Source: a virus. From it: a stretch of 20,461 nucleotides of DNA. This document shows, piece by piece, positions 70 to 18,168 of this stretch (position 1 is its first letter; every line of letters begins with the position of its first letter). The notes under the pieces are model-generated. The model was not told the origin of the DNA, did not search any database, and saw only the letters and a list, made by a program, of their open reading frames with translations. A program made the translations under genes and the position numbers. The stretch lies in the IMG/VR virus record IMGVR_UViG_3300009790_003956, positions 1 to 20,461 of that record; one strand, 5' to 3'.

Positions 70-512
70 TGGCCGCCCGCGCACCCGCTGCCACCCGTGC
101 CGATTTCGCGGATTTCTATCCATTGCAGACGCGATGGAACGACAATGACACCTATGGGCATATGAACAACGTCGTGCACTATGCGCTGTTTGACACGGCC
201 GTAAACGGCTGGCTGATCGAACGGGGGCTGCTGGACCCGCAGACCAGCCCCGCCTTCGGGCTCGTCGTGGAAACCGGTTGCCGCTATTTCGGAGAGATGG
301 CCTTCCCCGACCGCGTGACAGCGGGGCTGCGGGTGGCGCAGCTTGGCAAAAGCTCCGTCCGGATGGAGCTGGGCCTGTTCCGGAACGACGAGGAAAACGC
401 CTCTGCCGAAGGGTTCTTTGTGCATGTCTATGTGAACCGCGACGACCACCGCCCGACCGAGATTCCCGCCGCGACCCGTACCGCGCTAGAAGGGCTGAAA
501 ACCACGGCCTGA
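69..512 (+). CDS. Hot-dog fold acyl-CoA thioesterase (4HBT family)
   Basis: A 147-residue protein of the usual size for single-domain 4HBT thioesterases, which hydrolyse acyl-CoA thioesters in the cytoplasm as homotetramers. The N-terminal signature is visible as DNDTYGHMNN (residues 25-34) followed by Tyr38, matching the family pattern D-x-x-G-H-x-N-N-x3-Y, with Asp27 the likely catalytic acid. I chose the ATG at 69 because it overlaps the upstream stop; an in-frame TTG lies only two codons earlier at 63. The acyl substrate cannot be read from the sequence. The YbgC/FadM-like subgroup is likely. Nothing nearby ties it to a particular pathway. Confidence 0.85.
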   Translation: MAARAPAATRADFADFYPLQTRWNDNDTYGHMNNVVHYALFDTAVNGWLIERGLLDPQTSPAFGLVVETGCRYFGEMAFPDRVTAGLRVAQLGKSSVRMELGLFRNDEENASAEGFFVHVYVNRDDHRPTEIPAATRTALEGLKTTA

Positions 513-2041: not shown

Positions 2042-2379
2042 TTTAATTTCAATGACTTAGGTGCCGAAGCTGCAACGCGAAAATGCGGCTGCCACACAGT
2101 TTGCCGCACATTCTTGTTCTGTTCTTGTTCTGTCTTCTTGGAGTTAGGCGGGCTTCATAGAGCAGGGAGCGGCAATGATTTAATGGATCTTGAGCCTCAA
2201 ATTTTGAAGCCGATAGAGGATCAATCTCGACCAAGAGTTTGGGTGCTCGAATGACCCTTAAACGCTCTCCGGCTAACAACTGTAAAAATTGCGTCGGTAG
2301 AAGTGATAACGCGCGGTTGCGCTTGACGTGCCGCTAGTGTCATGGTTTTTGCATATGTGAGAAAATTGCAGGTCTATTG
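2042..2379. other. Non-coding stretch between tRNA-Cys and the methyltransferase
   Basis: I see no convincing gene; the reading frames across it are short and lack family features. It holds a tandem 11-bp repeat (2111-2132), a GCGC-GGTT-GCGC palindrome (2311-2322, spacer GGTT) and a good -35-like TTGACG at 2323-2328 with no clear -10 at the right distance. It probably contains the junction with foreign DNA and the methyltransferase promoter. Confidence 0.5.
2111..2132. repeat. Tandem 11-bp repeat TTCTTGTTCTG x2
   Basis: Two exact adjacent copies, 2111-2121 and 2122-2132, followed by a partial third (TCTTCTTG). They start 70 bases after the tRNA 3' end. Short tandem repeats at this distance from an attachment core are reminiscent of integrase arm-type sites, but there is no direct proof. 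Confidence 0.55.
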
Positions 2380-3867
2380 ATGGAAGCGCAGTCCGCAAAA
2401 GTTCTACTGAAGTCCTTAATGAAAGAGCACGGGGTGAGCACTGCTGATTTAGCCGAGCTTCTTTCTGATGATGGATCAACAGAAACGAAAGCTTCTATCG
2501 ATAGCAAGATAAGCCGAGGCCGGTTCTCGGCTGATTTTTTTCTACGCTGCGTAGGTTTAATGCAAGTACAGGATATCAATGTGAACTTTCCCATTCTGCC
2601 ATCAGATTCAGAAGCGGTTGCAGTCACAGAACCGGAAAACGCTAACCCGGTAAGGTTTCATGATGAACGAACGGGCAAAGATTACATTCGTACCGATGTG
2701 AGCGAACAAGAGGCTGCGCCATTAGAGGTAGTGAGCCTGTTCTCGGGCGCGGGCGGGTTTGATATTGGTCTGGAGCAGGCTGGCTTTAGAACACTTGCTT
2801 GTGTGGATTTTGATAAGGATTGCCGAGAGACACTTGAATTCAATCGACCAGATTGGGTCGTTGTCGACGGTAGCTCCTACCGAAAGCAGGCAGAGCTACC
2901 CGAGCGTGTTCTTGGCGATATACGTGCGATTGAGCCATCGGAAGTATTGGGGGCCGTGAAGCGACAACCTGGCGATATCGACTTGGTCGTTGGTGGAGCT
3001 CCGTGCCAACCGTTCTCAAACATGGGAAAGAAGAATGGCCAAAACGATGAGCGAAATGGTGACCTGTTCCTCCACTTCGTCCGTTTTGTTAAGGAAATGC
3101 AGCCTAAGGCGTTCATTTTCGAGAATGTTGTTGGCATTACGCAAGGTCGGCACCGCGAAGTGATTTCCTATATGGAAGAGCAGTTCTCGGGGATGGACTA
3201 CGGTATTTCACACGCGGTTTTAAATGCCGCAAACTATGGTGTGCCTCAGCGGCGTGAGAGGTTCTTCTTGGTTGGCATCAAGAATTCTGATGTCCCCGCA
3301 TTTCCTCTGCCCACCCACTTCAAAAGTGATGCCAGTTGGAAAACCTTTGTTGGTGGGTTTGATAAAGTTCCAACGGTATCGCCAAGGTCTTGGGTGACGG
3401 TTGGCGAGACGCTCAAAAAAATCCCTCCGAAGCGGCGGGAAAACGATGATTACGCCTGCATGTCGATATCAGACAAGGTCGTTGAACGGATGCTTTTCAT
3501 CAAGGCGGGTGAAAACTTTAAGGTCGTGCCGCCTGAGCTACTTCCGCAGTGTTGGAAATCTGGAAGACATCTCGGATCAGATACCTTCGGTCGGCTTGAC
3601 CCCGAGCAGCCTTCGGTCACCATTCGGACAGCCGCCTATAACCCGTCGAAAGGGAGGTACATTCACCCCTTTGAAAATAGAGGGCTCGATACTGTCGAAA
3701 TGGCCGCTTTGCAGGACTTTCCACCAGAGTGGAAATTTCGTTGCAAAGATAGAAGCCGGGTTACCCTTGTGAGTGCGGGAAAGCAGATTGGGAATGCTGT
3801 TCCACCTGGGCTTGCAAAGGCACTTGGGCAAGCCATCCGGGCGCAGCTTACTGAGACGTTAAGCTAG
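2380..3867 (+). CDS. DNA cytosine-C5 methyltransferase with N-terminal DUF6471-like domain
   Basis: A 495-residue modification enzyme that would transfer methyl from S-adenosylmethionine to cytosine C5. In order: a DUF6471-like segment (about 5-68) with LAELL, SKISRGRFSADFFLRC; a linker; then catalytic motifs I LFSGAGGFDIGLEQAGF (120-136), IV GGAPCQPFS with nucleophile Cys209, VI ENV (248-250), VIII QRRERFF (290-296) and X GKQIGNAVPP (467-476). The target-recognition segment is about 300-410. ATG at 2380 is preferred over the TTG at 2377; upstream GCAGG is a weak ribosome site. Its 3' end overlaps the convergent restriction gene by 9 bp, so it is the probable cognate protector. The extra domain resembles small HTH-type proteins and may make the enzyme its own regulator, which is inferred. 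Confidence 0.9.
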   Translation: MEAQSAKVLLKSLMKEHGVSTADLAELLSDDGSTETKASIDSKISRGRFSADFFLRCVGLMQVQDINVNFPILPSDSEAVAVTEPENANPVRFHDERTGKDYIRTDVSEQEAAPLEVVSLFSGAGGFDIGLEQAGFRTLACVDFDKDCRETLEFNRPDWVVVDGSSYRKQAELPERVLGDIRAIEPSEVLGAVKRQPGDIDLVVGGAPCQPFSNMGKKNGQNDERNGDLFLHFVRFVKEMQPKAFIFENVVGITQGRHREVISYMEEQFSGMDYGISHAVLNAANYGVPQRRERFFLVGIKNSDVPAFPLPTHFKSDASWKTFVGGFDKVPTVSPRSWVTVGETLKKIPPKRRENDDYACMSISDKVVERMLFIKAGENFKVVPPELLPQCWKSGRHLGSDTFGRLDPEQPSVTIRTAAYNPSKGRYIHPFENRGLDTVEMAALQDFPPEWKFRCKDRSRVTLVSAGKQIGNAVPPGLAKALGQAIRAQLTETLS

Positions 3868-4653
3868 GATCTCTTTAAACGCTTCATTAGCGGCTCCCAG
3901 CGTATCAACCTCATAGACTTCGTCGACAGCGGGTTCCGGTATGCTTGCGACAGTTGTGATGGAGTGCGTTGCAACTGTTTTAAGGGATTCGCGATCGGGT
4001 GCGCCGACTTTTGTCGCCATTGCATAATACCGAAGGCCCGGCGGATTTAGGATCCATTCGCGTGTTTGGAGGTGTACGTAGAGAGCCTTCATCAAAGACC
4101 CTTCGTGTGAAATTTGCAGCCGCCGATCGGGGCGTAGCGAAGACTTCACCGACAAATAACCAACAATGTCCTCGAACGCACACTTGCCAACCAATCTGCC
4201 CCAGAGCCCGTTCAAGGCATCCAGATCAGCCACGTCAATTTGCGAGTAGGGCGTGATCGGTCCAAACAGCTGATCCGCAAGCTCCCTTCTAATAAGAATG
4301 AAGTCCGGGTTTGAGCTGATCAATTGTACGGTTGAGCTTTCTTCGACCTTTCGCCGCAGGTCATCAATTTTCTCGCTGAGGCTTTGGACATATAGACTGG
4401 AAAGCTGCAGCGTCGATTTGTTCGGCAGCGGTATAGCGACATTCAAGCCCGGATCATTTGCGGACATATTCCACGACGCGATCGCGAGCATCCATTCATA
4501 CCAGTCACCATGTGCATTGCTGAGGGCACCCTGTGAGACGTTGGGGGCAACAGCGCGAATTGCATCATCCATGTCATGTAAAATATATGTAAAACGTTCG
4601 TGTCCGGCGGGTATCAGCCCGTTTCTGATCTCTACGAATGCTTCCCGCTTCAA
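3859..4653 (-). CDS. Type II restriction endonuclease, Cfr10I/Bse634I family
   Basis: A 264-residue protein predicted to cleave DNA at a CCGG-centred site and paired with the convergent methyltransferase. The catalytic set of Cfr10I (Glu71, Asp134, Ser188, Lys190, Glu204) has counterparts with nearly the same spacing: Glu53 in GDWYEW, Asp117 in SSNPD, SVK with Ser168 and Lys170, and Glu184 exactly 14 residues after the lysine, the swapped-glutamate arrangement of this family. RPDRR (174-178) matches the motif these enzymes use to read CCGG. The start is TTG at 4653, with no Shine-Dalgarno; a stop four codons upstream prevents extension. The protein is therefore about 20-30 residues shorter at the N-terminus than Cfr10I or Bse634I, so either a weak start limits toxicity or a frameshift has trimmed it. 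Confidence 0.85.
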   Translation of the reverse strand: MKREAFVEIRNGLIPAGHERFTYILHDMDDAIRAVAPNVSQGALSNAHGDWYEWMLAIASWNMSANDPGLNVAIPLPNKSTLQLSSLYVQSLSEKIDDLRRKVEESSTVQLISSNPDFILIRRELADQLFGPITPYSQIDVADLDALNGLWGRLVGKCAFEDIVGYLSVKSSLRPDRRLQISHEGSLMKALYVHLQTREWILNPPGLRYYAMATKVGAPDRESLKTVATHSITTVASIPEPAVDEVYEVDTLGAANEAFKEILA

Positions 4654-5321: not shown

Positions 5322-6677
5322 CTAGTATAAGGAAATCGCTGCCGAAGAATATCGAATTGGATTGTCAGGTCCCGGAACCGAAGGTAGACCAAATGCAAGT
5401 TGTAACATCACTGGCATGCATAATTCGGCTATCAATGCGATCCAAGACGACTCGGTAGCTAGGTTCTCGTTCGAAATGTGAAACTCAGTCGCCTTATTGT
5501 GCACGATAGAACAACGAATTCCATAAACCAATAACGAGAAATTTCTACGGAAAGCCGCTTCATCTCCGTTGAAATGCGCGCCATACTCCAGTCGATTTCC
5601 GTTTCCCTTTTTGATATCCAGTGATCTGAAAAAACTATCAAATTTGGCAGGTGTATCTTGATGTCTTTCCCGAAATGCATCCCTGGATTCTATAGCCATT
5701 TCAATCAGCGACTTGCTGCCAATTTGCTGGTCCCAACACCTTTCGAACAACTCGCTCAAGAATTTACTTTCACTTTGGTCGATACGTGTCCCAAGACGCT
5801 TGAAATCCCTGACCCGGCTGAGTGATAGGGTTGCGCTCTGCGTAAATGTGTCCGCAACCTGACTTCTGATCATGTAGTTTTCTAAGGCATGGTAAGCAGC
5901 CATAAACCCTTCAAGGATGCCAGTTGATGCGTTCACTCCGCTAAGCATGGAAAATGGTTCACGGAATTGGGCATAGTGTTCTGGGCTTCCAATGAAATCT
6001 CGTAGATCATTAATATTGGCCATTGTTTCAATCGGTAATTGCACGGGTGTCGACCAACTATCGCCACTGAGGACTAAGTGATATTGTAGATGCGCCTGTG
6101 CTTGGTTTATGTTCTCAATTTTTGAAATAAGCACGCATCCTTCTGATAATTCAGCTAGGTTCTCAAGCATTAGCAAGCATGCAATGACCTGGATGCCTTC
6201 ATCCCCAACATTGAACCTGCTTCCGGGAATATCCACCGAAGCAATCCGCAGATCGATAAAAGCTAGAGAATTAACAAACGCGTCATTACCATTGTAATAA
6301 TAAAAATCAGTATCCCTTCCATCCACTCCCGTTGACTTCTGTATATTATCGGTTTGGGAAAAGGAGTGAAAGCTTAGCTCATGTTCATGGTTGTATTGTT
6401 CAGTCCATGCCTCTGGATTTATTTTTCTTCCAATACTAATAATTCTTGCAACATTCTTAATGTTGTCGTCGTCTATAAGCTGGAGAAAGTTTTCATCGGG
6501 TGAGATTAGGTCGCTCAGCAGGGGCCAAAAAACTTCGGGCCTGGTCGATGGGCGATTAGCGGGAGCTAATAAATTTTCCAGTAGATCGTCGGCGGCGATC
6601 AAGTCATCCTCCGTTGCCTCCTCATCAAAACCAATTTTTTCACTAAGCAGCTGAATGAAACGCTCTTCGAGAGTCAT
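5322..6677 (-). CDS. HEPN-motif protein, probable RNase effector of a two-gene module
   Basis: A 451-residue cytoplasmic protein with no membrane segment or signal peptide. The N-terminal third is acidic and helical (about 1-90), and the middle (100-240) is unassigned. The C-terminal 200 residues are helical and contain YGIRCSIVHNKATEFHIS (385-402). Here Arg388-x4-His393 fits the HEPN R-x4-6-H signature, as in Apea-like and other RNase HEPN proteins, where Arg and His cut RNA in a dimer. AYHALENYMIR (261-271) could be the preceding HEPN helix pair. Its ATG overlaps the upstream stop (ATGA), so translation is coupled to the DGQHR-like partner. A nuclease toxin or abortive-infection effector is inferred from motif and context. 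The HEPN call is moderately firm; the target is unknown. Confidence 0.75.
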   Translation of the reverse strand: MTLEERFIQLLSEKIGFDEEATEDDLIAADDLLENLLAPANRPSTRPEVFWPLLSDLISPDENFLQLIDDDNIKNVARIISIGRKINPEAWTEQYNHEHELSFHSFSQTDNIQKSTGVDGRDTDFYYYNGNDAFVNSLAFIDLRIASVDIPGSRFNVGDEGIQVIACLLMLENLAELSEGCVLISKIENINQAQAHLQYHLVLSGDSWSTPVQLPIETMANINDLRDFIGSPEHYAQFREPFSMLSGVNASTGILEGFMAAYHALENYMIRSQVADTFTQSATLSLSRVRDFKRLGTRIDQSESKFLSELFERCWDQQIGSKSLIEMAIESRDAFRERHQDTPAKFDSFFRSLDIKKGNGNRLEYGAHFNGDEAAFRRNFSLLVYGIRCSIVHNKATEFHISNENLATESSWIALIAELCMPVMLQLAFGLPSVPGPDNPIRYSSAAISLY

Positions 6678-7930
6678 TTAGGAAACTCCCGAAAACGCGG
6701 AAACTCTGATTTTTCGGGCCTGAAGTACTGGCTCCAGTTTACTGTTTCCGTGTGGCCACCATCCAGATACTCCTGAACGGCCAACATCACCGCGTTCTTG
6801 TTCATGTTGCCGATGTTCACACTTCCTGTGTCTTGGCTATTTCTGACAGCTTCAAATTGCTTCAAATCCAACCAATTTTTAAATCGTGACACATCACTTA
6901 CCAGCTTCTCATAGGTCCGAGAAAAAGGTACTTTCGCTTTCTTAGACGAGCTCCCTATTGCAGCAAACAGCCCAGCTAATACAACTTCCCTGCCAAGCCA
7001 GCGGATTTCAATATCATCAGAAAACTCAAGGTCGAGTTTCGCTAAAAATTCGGAGAAAGCACGTAGATCCTCTTCTGAGATGTCTATGAAAGTATCTGCA
7101 GAACTTGCGCTCTCATTGGCAACACCAGCGGCGAAATCTGCGTTTGTCGATACTGGCTTGCCAAGCTTCAACGATTCAAATGCTGTTACCAGATGAGCGA
7201 AGAAGAACTGACCCTGCGTTCTGCGCTTACTGTAAGCCATTGAGCTTTGCTCTCGCTCGCGAACAATCCCACCGGGAAAGGCGCTTTTGAAAATCGGCAG
7301 GTAGGATGCAAACAGCAATTCAATCTGGTGCTTAATACTAACTGACTTATGACCCGCGTTGAGCAGGAGCATTTTTTTAATCTGCTCATTTTCGGTCAAT
7401 CCCACCCAGAGCTCTAACCAAAGAGTATTTTCTGCTATTATATCTAGTAACGGTCGACTGGGTTTTTCAGCCTTGGTTCTCAACATTTTTGCAAAGAGAA
7501 CTGGTGGACAGTCTAATTCATTGAGTTTGGGCCTATGCGTCTTGGTAAGCTGCCGAACGTCGAAATGACTTCCTCCAAAGAGGTCGTTTTGGACAGCCAC
7601 TTCTCGATCAATAAACCTTGCAGTATCGGCAATGATCTTGAGTCTATTGGTCCTTTGCAGGCCGTCCAGTATTTTCCAGCTACCTACAAGAGCTGGATTG
7701 GACGTTTTTTCATTTTCGGGATCGCCAACAACTACGATTATTGGAATATGAAGTCGCTGCTCAAGGGTTTCCCAAAGTGTATCGAGGTAGCGGTTGCTGA
7801 CTATTCCTCGCTGGACAAAATAGTCTTTAAACTCAATAGGTAAACTTTCTATAAACTCGAGCGCACCAACGCGGCAAAAGTAGCCTTTGGCGCTTCCTTC
7901 CTCAAAGGTGTCTATGACCTCTAATGTCAT
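6674..7930 (-). CDS. DGQHR/ParB-like (DUF262-type) protein, first gene of the HEPN operon
   Basis: A 418-residue protein. WKILDGLQRTNRL (85-97) matches the D-G-[QL]-[QH]-R core of DGQHR/DndB and ParB/DUF262 folds, which in GmrSD- and Dnd-like systems hydrolyse nucleotides or DNA or sense modified DNA. LLLNAGHKSVSIKHQIELL (188-206) fits the conserved N-x-G-x-K stretch that follows in these families. The C-terminal half is helical and unassigned. ATG at 7930 is chosen over TTG at 7933 because AAGGAGAG is correctly spaced for it. A promoter lies at 7981-8008, and the last codon overlaps the next gene by 4 bp. It may sense invasion or restrain the HEPN protein, which is inferred. The glutamine of DGQ is replaced by leucine, so this is a divergent family member. 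Confidence 0.75.
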   Translation of the reverse strand: MTLEVIDTFEEGSAKGYFCRVGALEFIESLPIEFKDYFVQRGIVSNRYLDTLWETLEQRLHIPIIVVVGDPENEKTSNPALVGSWKILDGLQRTNRLKIIADTARFIDREVAVQNDLFGGSHFDVRQLTKTHRPKLNELDCPPVLFAKMLRTKAEKPSRPLLDIIAENTLWLELWVGLTENEQIKKMLLLNAGHKSVSIKHQIELLFASYLPIFKSAFPGGIVREREQSSMAYSKRRTQGQFFFAHLVTAFESLKLGKPVSTNADFAAGVANESASSADTFIDISEEDLRAFSEFLAKLDLEFSDDIEIRWLGREVVLAGLFAAIGSSSKKAKVPFSRTYEKLVSDVSRFKNWLDLKQFEAVRNSQDTGSVNIGNMNKNAVMLAVQEYLDGGHTETVNWSQYFRPEKSEFPRFREFPK

Positions 7931-7980
7931 CAATCTCTCCTTGGGTGAGGCGGCTGGATTGCCAGCAGGAAGCGAAGATC

Positions 7981-12727: not shown

Positions 12728-13581
12728 GCCACGCTGCTACCCACTGGTTGGCAACGGTGCCGCCCAACGACATGACGCATGGCGAGTTCAGGGTGCTGTT
12801 TCACCTGTGCGATTGCCACAATGCCAGCATGGGGTGCTTTCCAAAGCAGACCTATTTGCGCGACCACACAGGCCTGTCGAATGGTGGTTTGAACAAGGCG
12901 CTGGGCGAGCTCGAGCGTAAGGGACTGATCCGCAGAAAGCAGGAGCGTGATCCGCGCACAAACCGTCAAAAACCCACCCGATATGTCCTCGGTTTCGAGC
13001 TGTCAGAAGCCCAAAAGCCGACTCCACTCAGTGGAGCCGGAGCCGTCTCCACTTTTGACGCAGTTCCGTCTCCACTTTTAGAGGGGTCCGTCTCCACTGG
13101 GGTGGAGTCGTATATAGAAGAACCAGTAAGAGAACCTGTAAAGGAACCTTGCGCGTCGGAAGCCGACCCGCAGACAGATGGAATTTCTTCGGATTTCTTG
13201 GAAGAGTTCCTCGAGGCGCATCCACGCCCCGGAGATCCTGTCGAAACCGAGGCCGCGCTGAAGAAGGCGATTGCCGCCGGTGCCGATGCCGCTGCCATCC
13301 TTTCTGGTGCCAAAGCTTACGCCCTGGAGCAGAAGGGCAACGAACTTCGCTACGTGTCGTATTCGCAGAATTGGCTCACCCGTCAGGGGTGGGTTCAGTT
13401 CCTTGCCAAGTCGGCAGCCAAAAACACGGTCAACGCCGATGCCGTAAAAAAACGCTGGGCGCGCTGGATCCGAACGAAGGCTGAGAATGCGCGGCATTGT
13501 TCGGCAGCGATGGCCCGTCAACTGTGCACCGAGGGCCTAGTTTCCGCCCAAGAGTGCCGGGCAGTGGGGATCGACGTATGA
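12724..13581 (+). CDS. Phage replication initiator-like protein with internal iterons
   Basis: A 285-residue protein. Residues 10-90 form a winged-helix domain: DMTHGEFRVLFHLCDCHNA, GCFPKQTYLRDHTGLSNGGLNKALGELERKGLIRR. The wing carries QERDPRTNRQKPTRYVL. A proline- and glutamate-rich linker follows (about 95-150), then a helical C-terminal domain with ALKKAIAAGADAAAILSGAKAYALEQ and a motif common in phage DnaA/DnaT-like replication proteins. The DNA coding the linker contains four iterons, as the lambda O gene contains its origin, so it likely binds its own coding sequence to start replication. It overlaps both neighbours by ATGA. The family is inferred from domain order, not search. Confidence 0.75.
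   Translation: MSHAATHWLATVPPNDMTHGEFRVLFHLCDCHNASMGCFPKQTYLRDHTGLSNGGLNKALGELERKGLIRRKQERDPRTNRQKPTRYVLGFELSEAQKPTPLSGAGAVSTFDAVPSPLLEGSVSTGVESYIEEPVREPVKEPCASEADPQTDGISSDFLEEFLEAHPRPGDPVETEAALKKAIAAGADAAAILSGAKAYALEQKGNELRYVSYSQNWLTRQGWVQFLAKSAAKNTVNADAVKKRWARWIRTKAENARHCSAAMARQLCTEGLVSAQECRAVGIDV
13018..13110. repeat. Four iterons, candidate phage replication origin
   Basis: CCG(A/T)CTCCACT occurs at 13018-13028, 13043-13053, 13066-13076 and 13088-13098, with starts 25, 23 and 22 bp apart. The outer copies are palindromic: CTCCACT-C-AGTGGAG (13022-13036) and CTCCAC-TGGG-GTGGAG (13092-13107). AT-rich TATATA and purine-rich DNA follow at 13111. The array is entirely inside the initiator gene. 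Confidence 0.65.
13120..13148. repeat. 12-bp tandem repeat next to the iterons
   Basis: GAACCAGTAAGA (13120-13131), GAACCTGTAAAG (13132-13143) and a partial GAACC (13144-13148) encode the repeated peptide EPVREPVKEP. The purine-rich repeat may be part of the origin unwinding region or simply a protein linker. Confidence 0.5.
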
Positions 13582-16235: not shown

Positions 16236-17615
16236 TTGTCTGATCTAATTTCTTACACCGACGTCGAGATGTTGCCGCCCGGTGGCCTGACGCCCTACGA
16301 CCGAAACTCACGGACGCATAGCCCTGAGCAGGTCAACCAGATCGCGGCATCGATCCGCGAGTTCGGGTTCACCAACCCGGTGTTGGTTGGGGAGGACGGC
16401 ACCATCATCGCCGGCCACGGTCGGGTGCTTGCAGCCTTAGAAATAGGGATGTCGCAGGTTCCGTGCCTCAGAATTACCGGCCTGTCAGACGAGCAGCGGC
16501 GCGCCTATATCATCGCCGACAACAAGCTGGCGCTTAACGCCGGATGGGATGATGAGCTGCTTAAGCTGGAGCTCGGCGAGCTGCGCGATCTGGGATTTGA
16601 CCTCGGGGTTGTGGGCTTTGATCAATCCGAATTAGACGAGCTTTTTGTCGATCTCGACGGCCTTGAAGAGGAAGGAAAAACCGAAGACGACGAGGTGCCG
16701 CCGATCGGGGGGGACTTCGTTTCTCGGCGTGGCGATGTTTGGGTTTGCGGTGATCACCGGATCATGTGTGGCGACTCCACGGTCATGTCCGACATCGAGC
16801 GGCTGATCGGTGACGAGCTGGTCGATATGTGTTGGACCGATCCCCCCTATAATGTGAACTACGAGGGCACGGCCGGCAAGATTGAGAACGACAACATGGG
16901 CGCGGACGCGTTCTTGGCCTTCCTAACCGATGCTTTTGTTTCTGTCTTCTCTGCCGTCAAGCCAGGCGGTGCGCTCTATGTGGCACATGCCGACACCGAG
17001 GGACTGCCGTTTCGCACAGCCTTCAGCTCCGCTGGGTTCAAACTGTCGGGGTGTCTGGTCTGGGTGAAACCGAGCCTTGTCCTGGGCCGCTCGGATTATC
17101 AGTGGCGGCACGAGCCGATCCTTTACGGCTGGAAGCCAGGCGCACCGCACCGGTGGTTTGGCGGCCGTAAGCAGACAACGGTCATCGATGCGGAGGATCC
17201 GCCGTTCGTCGTCAAAGAGGACGGGTCGCTGTTGATCGACACGGGATCCGGCCATCTGCGCGTTTCAGGTTCTGACCTTCAGATCGAGGAGCTGGTGTCG
17301 TCGGTGCTGCGCCACGAAAAGCCGAGCCGCAACACCGAGCACCCGACCATGAAGCCGGTCGGGCTGGTGATACAGTACCTGAAGAACAGCAGCCGGCGCG
17401 GTGATCTAGTCCTGGATCCTTTCGGCGGTTCGGGGAGCACGATGATTGCGGCGCAGAAGATCGGCCGTGTCGCGCGGCTGATGGAGCTGGATCCACGGTT
17501 CGCGGATGTGATTGTGAAACGCTGGCAGGATTTCACCGGGGGGCAGGCCGTCCTTGAGGGCACGTCGGATCGCTTTGACGATCTGCGTGGCAAACGTGGG
17601 GAGGCAGGCAAGTGA
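16236..17615 (+). CDS. ParB-domain DNA methyltransferase (beta-class N4/N6), phage
   Basis: A 459-residue protein. The N-terminal ParB/Srx-like nuclease domain is about 10-110, with LTPYDRNSRTHS, IIAGHGR (57-63), VPCLRI and ADNKLAL. The methyltransferase domain (165-440) has motif IV DPPY (202-205) before motif I DPFGGSGS (394-401), the beta-class order, and NTEHPTMKP (366-374). It would methylate adenine N6 or cytosine N4, probably protecting phage DNA from host restriction before packaging. The start is TTG at 16236 behind TTAGGAG (8-nt spacing). The 119 bases upstream hold no gene and probably a promoter region. ParB-methyltransferase fusions commonly sit next to phage terminases, which is known of the family. 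Confidence 0.88.
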   Translation: MSDLISYTDVEMLPPGGLTPYDRNSRTHSPEQVNQIAASIREFGFTNPVLVGEDGTIIAGHGRVLAALEIGMSQVPCLRITGLSDEQRRAYIIADNKLALNAGWDDELLKLELGELRDLGFDLGVVGFDQSELDELFVDLDGLEEEGKTEDDEVPPIGGDFVSRRGDVWVCGDHRIMCGDSTVMSDIERLIGDELVDMCWTDPPYNVNYEGTAGKIENDNMGADAFLAFLTDAFVSVFSAVKPGGALYVAHADTEGLPFRTAFSSAGFKLSGCLVWVKPSLVLGRSDYQWRHEPILYGWKPGAPHRWFGGRKQTTVIDAEDPPFVVKEDGSLLIDTGSGHLRVSGSDLQIEELVSSVLRHEKPSRNTEHPTMKPVGLVIQYLKNSSRRGDLVLDPFGGSGSTMIAAQKIGRVARLMELDPRFADVIVKRWQDFTGGQAVLEGTSDRFDDLRGKRGEAGK

Positions 17616-17665: not shown

Positions 17666-18168
17666 GCAGTTCGGGAAATCCAACATATCCGGTCAGCGTG
17701 ATTGCGAAGCTGCTGAAGCTGACCGAGCGCCGGGTCCAGCAGCTGTCGAAGGAGGGCGTGATCCCGAAAGCCGAACACGGCCGCTATGAGCTTGCGGCCG
17801 CGGTACAAGGCTATGTCGGGTACCTGCAAGAACGGATTGCACCCCGCGGTGCCGACGGTGATCCCGAAAAGGCCGACTACCATACCGAAAAGGCGCGGCT
17901 GACCAAGTCGCAGGCTGACATGGCAGAAATGGAAGCGGCGAAGATGCGCGGTGCGCTAGTGGATGCCGAGCAGATGAAGGAGGCCCTGGACTTGGTGGTC
18001 GCCGAGGTCCGCGCCAATCTATTGAACAACGCGCCCACTCGGATCGCGGCGCGCGCTAAGTCGGAAAAGAAAGAGGCTTCGATCAAGCTCATCGCAAAGG
18101 AAGAGATCGGTGCGGCTCTGCGCAAACTGTCGACCACTGATCCGTCTTCTCTGGTGGGAGCCGACTGA
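17662..18168 (+). CDS. Terminase small subunit (DNA recognition)
   Basis: A 168-residue protein. An N-terminal winged-helix, VSVIAKLLKLTERRVQQLSKEGVIPK (11-36), reads the phage packaging site. The central segment GYVGYLQERI and long charged helices (AQADMAEMEAAKMRGALVDAEQMKEAL, about 83-108) form the oligomerisation part, as in Nu1-like small subunits. The C-terminal tail would contact the large subunit. It overlaps the start of the large terminase (TGATG), the normal pair. Confidence 0.85.
   Translation: MSSSGNPTYPVSVIAKLLKLTERRVQQLSKEGVIPKAEHGRYELAAAVQGYVGYLQERIAPRGADGDPEKADYHTEKARLTKSQADMAEMEAAKMRGALVDAEQMKEALDLVVAEVRANLLNNAPTRIAARAKSEKKEASIKLIAKEEIGAALRKLSTTDPSSLVGAD

Follow-up and report, generated by a model that had tools for sequence, protein, structure and literature searches.

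A probable replication origin within the linker-coding part of a phage initiator gene, with iterons that covary with the winged helix of the initiator

Replication origins inside initiator genes are already known, in phage lambda and in the staphylococcal plasmid pSK41. The lambda origin lies inside O, and protein P brings the helicase (PMC5043065). Four O-binding iterons are annotated at nucleotides 349, 369, 393 and 416 of the O gene (spacings of 20, 24 and 23), and lambda O matches the Pfam family Phage_rep_O at 6e-36. Hairpins in lambdoid replication regions have been raised as a question (PMC7466680). The rep gene of pSK41 has four Rep boxes at its center, in a part that encodes a dispensable linker; in RepA_N plasmid initiators of this type the winged-helix N-domain contacts the major and minor grooves, and the C-domain binds DnaG primase (PMC5703833). 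The same paper describes plasmid pPR9, whose initiator is a chimera carrying a PF13730 (HTH_36) N-domain: pPR9 departs from pSK41 over some 500 bp that hold the N-domain and the origin, and a pPR9 mini-replicon replicates and is compatible with pSK41. The RepA_N initiator of the mobile element PLE of Vibrio cholerae binds iterons through its N-domain (PMC7145576). In geminiviruses, Rep proteins and iterons form sequence-specific pairs, and the iterons often differ between close relatives (PMC12548392). For mycobacteriophages an origin has been suspected in or just upstream of repA (PMC7157519). In the literature searched, which was mainly non-subscription and consisted largely of titles and abstract openings, we found neither an origin nor a residue-to-base code for the phage group described here.

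The window, by which we mean the whole stretch of DNA analysed, is IMG/VR virus record IMGVR_UViG_3300009790_003956 (20,461 bp, positions 1 to 20,461). Because it encodes an integrase, a late activator, an endolysin and a terminase, we take it to be a temperate phage or prophage. The features of the locus are listed in Table 1. Four direct copies of the iteron CCGNCTCCACT occur in the initiator gene, spaced by 25, 23 and 22 bp. Sites 1 and 4 each have an inverted copy beside them and are therefore palindromic, while the inner sites 2 and 3 are single half-sites. They are followed by TATATA (13111-13116) and by two purine-rich 12-bp units (13120-13131 and 13132-13143), with a half unit extending to 13149, and then by a GC-rich hairpin. 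The iterons, the A+T/purine-rich stretch and the hairpin all lie within the linker between the winged-helix domain and the helical C-domain. Reading the sequence directly thus bears out the original prediction, made from the sequence alone, of four iterons 22-25 bp apart with the outer two palindromic, followed by TATATA and a 12-bp tandem repeat, all in the linker-coding part of a winged-helix initiator gene.

Table 1. Coordinates of the initiator gene and of the elements of the proposed origin in the window
Feature	Position	Strand	Sequence	Basis or remark
Initiator gene, 285 aa	12724-13581	+		ORF, HTH_36, PHROG 270, AlphaFold models
Initiator domains: N-terminal winged helix, residues 1-95; disordered linker, 95-152; helical C-domain, 156-285				AlphaFold models
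Recognition-helix codons, residues 52-65	12877-12918	+		Residues 53 and 58 track iteron bases 5 and 9
Codon of wing residue Q82	12967-12969	+		Tracks iteron base 3
Iteron 1	13018-13028	+	CCGACTCCACT	Sequence read directly
Inverted copy of iteron 1	13030-13040	-	CCGGCTCCACT	Sequence read directly
Iteron 2	13043-13053	+	CCGTCTCCACT	Sequence read directly
Iteron 3	13066-13076	+	CCGTCTCCACT	Sequence read directly
Iteron 4	13088-13098	+	CCGTCTCCACT	Sequence read directly
Inverted copy of iteron 4	13101-13110	-	CGACTCCACC	Sequence read directly
Probable unwinding element	13111-13149	+	TATATA + 12-mers GAACCAGTAAGA / GAACCTGTAAAG / GAACCT	64% A+T, 67% purine
GC-rich hairpin, one mismatch	13150-13172	+	TGCGCGTCGGAAGCCGACCCGCA	Proposed third origin element, absent from the original prediction

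By family, as judged from sequence profiles, the gene is a phage replication initiator. Its Pfam match is HTH_36 (E 3e-9), and the profile of PHROG 270, annotated as replication initiation protein, matches residues 16-282 and thus most of the protein (E 7e-20). The 'O-like' families PHROG 391 and 345 also match it, and its homologs likewise match the phage 'replication initiation' families PHROG 270, 391, 345 and 678; these labels carry nothing on origin position or iteron specificity. Phage_rep_O (PF04492) is matched neither by the window protein nor by five homologs, all of which match HTH_36 in Pfam. RepA_N (PF06970) is absent among the 10 Pfam families listed for the window protein with E up to 0.1, Rep_3 (PF01051) is not among the Pfam matches listed up to the same value, and DnaD_N matches weakly (E 0.03). 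AlphaFold models the N-domain with a pLDDT of 94.6, with the recognition helix at residues 53-65 and residue 82 between the two strands of the wing; in the full-length model pLDDT is under 50 at residues 95-152, which is the stretch encoded by the proposed origin. When PDB sequences are searched with a profile of the N-domain, MarR/SlyA-type regulators come first, so the N-domain alone does not say 'initiator'. Its fold matches tie across TFIIE, Fur, LexA, CRP and MarR, and the C-domain is barely covered in the fold lists. The match to 4pt7_B (Z 8.3, 82 aligned residues, 3.2 Å) is tied with many unrelated winged helices and therefore indicates fold class only; 4pt7 is the N-domain of a staphylococcal RepA (PMC7145576). 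A sequence search of the PDB with E up to 0.1 gave no structure of lambda O. We note that the public records of phages vB_LagS-V1, PPF1 (a Rhizobium phage) and RcOceanus label the homolog as an HTH protein or transcriptional regulator, and that the record of cyanophage Pam5 has no annotated gene over most of its homolog (L008, 2502-3104).

The layout parallels that of the lambda origin, as had been proposed: both lie in the middle of the initiator gene, between the parts encoding the DNA-binding and C-terminal domains, with the four O iterons in the matching part of O. In lambda, too, the four iterons are 20-24 bp apart and fall in several reading frames, an A-rich stretch corresponding to the A+T/purine-rich one adjoins iteron 4, and by eye an inverted repeat (GTCAGAG...CTCTGAC) follows the A-rich stretch at the place of the window hairpin. 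The two systems differ in initiator family, as was also predicted, since Phage_rep_O is matched by lambda O and not by the window protein; the iteron sequences are unrelated; and every lambda iteron is a full inverted repeat that binds a dimer, in contrast to the half-sites 2 and 3 of the window. Lambda has the helicase-loader gene P next to O, whereas no helicase or P-like loader was recognised among the window proteins scanned, and the gene directly downstream of the initiator has no Pfam or PHROG family match. Plasmids pSK41 and pPR9 have their origins inside the initiator gene, as proposed for the window, and pPR9 additionally resembles it in its Pfam N-domain class and in an N-domain and origin that look like a unit separable from the C-domain; RepA_N, as found in pSK41, is a different Pfam family, and these are staphylococcal plasmids. 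The PLE iterons lie in the noncoding region NCR3 and not in the gene, and the geminiviruses, which are single-stranded DNA viruses of plants, have their iterons upstream of the gene.

The repeats exceed what chance would give. AGTGGAG/CTCCACT is the only 7-mer in the 20,461-bp window with at least four non-overlapping copies within 130 bp, and the five copies in the initiator gene were reached by none of 20 codon shuffles that preserve the protein. A weaker test, counting the iteron over the whole window with up to one mismatch, gave 5 matches against 1.38 expected, a count reached by one of 100 shuffles. Labrenzia phage vB_LagS-V1 has a genome of 39,329 bp, and the four 7-mers in it that reach at least four copies in 130 bp all lie inside the initiator homolog. 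Rhodobacter phage RcOceanus has 20 such 7-mers genome-wide; its iterons are not among the top eight listed, and the cluster has no prominence there. No DnaA box (pattern TTWTNCACA) occurs anywhere in the window. A GC-skew turn at the iterons, which had been named as a check, is not seen within the window: cumulative skew climbs on either side of a dip at about 5.5-7.5 kb and keeps climbing beyond the iteron site. In vB_LagS-V1 the minimum and maximum of cumulative skew fall at the two ends of the record.

We then surveyed the family. A search of genome-contig proteins with the window protein alone gave no relative, whereas alignment queries did retrieve relatives (80 viral and 80 genome loci). 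Most titles of the retrieved loci name Rhodobacter-type and rhizobial genera, and a few titles are of MAGs from other groups. The discovery set comprised 169 sequences, of which 7 had no gene by the start pattern; the remaining 162 genes reduced to 127 non-redundant ones, the window gene included. A 7-mer with at least four non-overlapping copies in 130 bp is present in 119 of the 127, against 43 of 2540 codon shuffles, and the remaining 8 have a three-copy cluster only. In all 119 except L147 the first copy lies at codon 92-144. The iteron sequences vary by gene (CCGTCTCCA, CCGTGTCCGG, CCATCTCCGG, CCGTGTCTCA, CCGAGTCCAG and others). Motifs could be anchored in 117 discovery genes (10 of the 127 had none). 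A held-out set from three further scans (231 loci, 8 without the gene) gave 63 anchored genes, 29 of 92 having no anchored motif. Across the 180 anchored genes, three direct sites 23 and 23 bp apart fit best in 145, in a scan that covered first spacings of 21-25 and second spacings of 22-24 with a slight preference for 23. Inspection by eye shows that an inverted copy usually comes after the last site, with two or three TAACCYTGTAAGRGAACC-like 12-mers behind it; 196 of 219 genes have a pair of 12-mers downstream of the iteron cluster. In these 196 genes, the last-iteron offset carries a palindromic stem in 79% and the first-iteron offset in 40%. A query with the Pam5 protein retrieved 80 loci, many of them matching through the C-terminal part only; 46 were tested for repeats, giving 41 non-redundant ORFs. 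At least five copies of a 7-mer in 130 bp occur in 11 of the 41 (0 of 820 shuffles), four copies in 8 (10 of 820 shuffles), and three or fewer in 22, so that in-gene repeats extend past the present group and not to all of the matches to Pam5.

Several observations indicate that the repeats are conserved as DNA. The spacings are not multiples of three and the copies are read in two frames, which marks the iterons as a DNA signal. In comparisons of homologs, the mismatch rate at third codon positions is 0.365 for the N-domain and 0.377 for the remaining linker, against 0.160 for the iterons and 0.124 for the 12-mer array, making mismatches 2-3 times rarer in the iterons and array than in the N-domain. 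These values come from 753 non-independent pairs, with members in common, among 136 genes; the filters let through 1281 pairs, of which 753 were counted because iteron positions cover discovery genes only. Two close relatives, L001 and L002, whose proteins are 93% and 96% identical to the window initiator, show no synonymous change in the two 72-bp blocks covering 13012-13155. The other ten blocks have 1-10 synonymous codons in L001 and 0-5 in L002, the last L002 block also having none. We propose that the linker serves the protein as a spacer, and that its sequence matters mainly as DNA.

The base composition is consistent with a place where the duplex opens. The A+T content of the 39-bp stretch 13111-13149 compares with 42% gene-wide and is reached by 0.4% of the gene's 39-mers; this stretch is the probable unwinding element. 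In the family, A+T content peaks over the 12-mer array at 57-63%, from about 40% upstream, and falls to 20% at the hairpin. The hairpin was sought in the 40 nt from the last 12-mer on and scored as stem length plus half its GC pairs, in the 196 genes that have a 12-mer pair (the 23 without one being left out). A perfect stem scoring at least 7.5 occurs in 114 of 196 genes; among codon shuffles the count is 278 of 1960, and among other gene pieces 192 of 3126. The contrast is smaller when one mismatch is allowed (score at least 8: 49 of 196, against 182 of 1960 shuffles and 198 of 1928 other gene pieces). With its mismatch, the window hairpin has a score of 10.5, which 6 of 500 codon-shuffled versions of the initiator gene equal; its perfect stem scores 7.0, below the family threshold of 7.5 and equalled by 51 of 500. 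The stem strings are varied: 47 different ones occur in the family, mostly of the GCGCGC type and also including the unrelated CCCCCCGAAATCGGGGGG and CGAGCGTTTCGCTCG. We note in addition that many Paracoccus-type loci (e.g., L043, L052 and L065) share a AAAGGAGGAGGAGG stretch that comes after the 12-mer array and ahead of the hairpin and resembles a strong Shine-Dalgarno sequence inside the gene. An internal start behind it was considered and dropped on inspection by eye of one gene, because the nearest ATG there is out of frame.

The iteron bases covary with residues of the initiator. In the 117 anchored discovery genes, base 3 is G where residue 82 is Q (92 genes) or A (1) and A where it is R (23) or K (1); base 5 is G where residue 53 is R (75) and C where it is N, I, V or P (42). 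Both rules hold in 117/117. Base 9 tracks residue 58: it is G with D, E or A, A with N, K, T or S, and C with R, and is mixed with V and L. The window fits this code, with Q82 and G3, N53 and C5, and K58 and A9. Among the 63 held-out genes, residue 82 gave the correct base in 62 and an incorrect one in L323, and residue 58 was correct in 48 and incorrect in L235, with no call in 14; residue 53 was correct in 63, which is not really a test of it because all 63 were R53/G5.

Prediction was also assessed over all 180 anchored genes, with training only on relatives below an N-domain identity cut-off of 60% or 70%. At 60%, residue 82 gives the correct base 3 for 177 of the 180 genes and reaches a balanced accuracy of 0.98; the runner-up among the 95 columns reaches 0.73 and the nearest neighbour 0.48. 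Residue 53 ranks first for base 5, by a small margin at 60% (0.76, against 0.74 for the second column and 0.68 for the neighbour) and by a wider one at 70% (0.87, against 0.78 and 0.74). For base 9, residue 58 is the best of the 95 columns at 60% (0.57; 0.43; 0.36) and again at 70% (0.85; 0.51; 0.50). On a tree there are 8 changes of base 3, 6 of base 5 and 18 of base 9; independent pairs on well-supported branches number 3 for base 3 and 2 for base 5, all concordant and too few for a sign test. Across the three direct sites, which had been picked for likeness, base 3 is identical in 163, base 5 in 178 and base 9 in 158 of the 180 genes; flanking bases agree less often (base 10 in 89, base 12 in 55). 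As the model places the tracking columns in the recognition helix and wing, they are the ones expected to touch DNA. We regard the covariation as strong, though indirect, evidence that the initiator binds the iterons.

Of the 39 rows without an anchored motif, 17 were re-inspected (all 10 from the discovery set and 7 of the 29 held-out). Ten have readable sites (L013, L024, L031, L077, L089, L090, L097, L172, L178 and L384), and within each of them most sites obey the residue 82 rule when judged by eye and unblinded; L077 and L097 have one deviating site each. Of the other seven, none with sites of the iteron type, six differ in their recognition helix: L006 and L087 (of the phage PPF1 type), L292, L299, L385 and L008. 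The seventh, L379, lacks repeats, and its wing is garbled. The PPF1 type makes up 20 of the 29 dropped held-out rows. In the R82 genes L024, L089, L090 and L097 the iterons mostly start with CTA, not CCA, and the wing and base 2 are possibly linked in these genes.

The anatomy, its recurrence, the constraint at the DNA level, the covariation and the predicted disorder of the linker together suggest that 13018-13172 is very probably the replication origin of a temperate phage, lying inside the gene that encodes its own initiator. Contacts from the recognition helix (residues 53, 54 and 58) and from the wing (residue 82) would let the winged helix bind the half-site CCGNCTCCACT. A multi-protein complex would assemble on the four direct half-sites, which are spaced by about two helical turns and of which the outer two are palindromic, and the bending and torsion of this complex would open the neighbouring array of A+T/purine-rich 12-mers. 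On its right the opened stretch would be bounded, or stabilised, by the GC-rich hairpin, which may help to hold the single strand or to load on it. The C-terminal domain would then recruit the host helicase or primase; we favour direct recruitment because no loader was recognised among the scanned proteins, but the neighbouring gene has no family match. Opening of the array and recruitment of helicase or primase by the initiator is the most likely course by analogy with lambda and the RepA_N plasmids.

Covariation tells only which DNA the initiator probably reads, not what its binding does, and the same repeats could serve as an autoregulatory operator, by which the initiator would bind its own gene and block or slow transcription of the early operon as a roadblock, the true origin being elsewhere. 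We consider this unlikely: the iteron cluster begins about 300 nt inside the gene and not at its start, an operator needs neither the 12-mer pair (196 of 219 genes) nor the GC-rich stem (114 of 196), and the protein family is one of replication initiation (PHROG 270). Operator and origin are not exclusive, and binding to the iterons could also regulate the gene.

Tandem iterons are typical also of partition, incompatibility and packaging sites, and the window does encode, at 16236-17615, a ParB-like domain fused to a DNA methyltransferase (PHROG 498, E 2e-164). Centromere-like or pac repeats bound by the initiator or by another phage protein nevertheless seem very improbable, as the iteron bases track residues in the initiator's own winged helix and in the window about 5 kb separate the site from the large-terminase gene at 18168; the repeat survey covered the inside of initiator genes, and other places in the window and in two phage genomes. 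Disordered linkers are often repetitive, and the linker is indeed predicted to be disordered, which would suit a repeat at the protein level with no DNA function. This explanation is hardly credible given that the copies fall in different frames, that codon shuffles destroy the repeats, and that third positions are conserved in them, with no synonymous change in L001 or L002 over 13012-13155.

Returning to the reading as an origin, the C-terminal parts of 193 genes fall by single-linkage clustering into 10 clusters, six of them single-gene. One iteron code spans up to 5 of these clusters, and the largest cluster (128 genes) carries 11 codes. Because codes and C-terminal clusters mix, the N-domain and origin look separable from the C-domain. 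We lean towards the view that the winged helix and the linker origin form a self-contained specificity cassette, with a near-deterministic code of three contacts (residues 82, 53 and 58), joined to varied C-domains and with the hairpin as a third part. If so, the origin of such a phage, and which co-resident phages could cross-activate it, would be readable from the protein alone. The analysis places a probable origin for a large group of phages and prophages, mostly of alphaproteobacterial hosts, whose initiators are often labelled only HTH. Initiator-origin specificity, which is usually solved replicon by replicon, becomes a sequence prediction in which a known residue gives the iteron base. 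Natural protein/site pairs exist that share a recognition helix and differ in the wing residue and its matching base, as do L142 (Q82, CCG iterons) and L145 (R82, CCA iterons); the system would be a test bed for the joint change of an initiator and a site, in several copies, in its own coding sequence.

Some further features of the window may be recorded. A tRNA-Cys (gca) gene at 1968-2041 lies just downstream of gene 670-1830, which from its protein sequence we take to be glutamate 5-kinase-like, and upstream of the cargo genes. This tRNA gene is the likely integration site; no repeat of at least 14 bp was found within 1800-2500 around it, and the other end of the phage would lie outside the window. 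Between the tRNA gene and the integrase gene is a restriction-modification pair (2377-4653), consisting of a cytosine-5 methyltransferase gene (2377-3867, + strand) and, beside it, a type II restriction enzyme-like gene (3859-4653, - strand). Near the integrase, at 5322-7933 on the - strand, two genes match PADLOC DzbB (E 6e-10) and DzbA (E 1e-27) and form a DzbAB-like defence pair.
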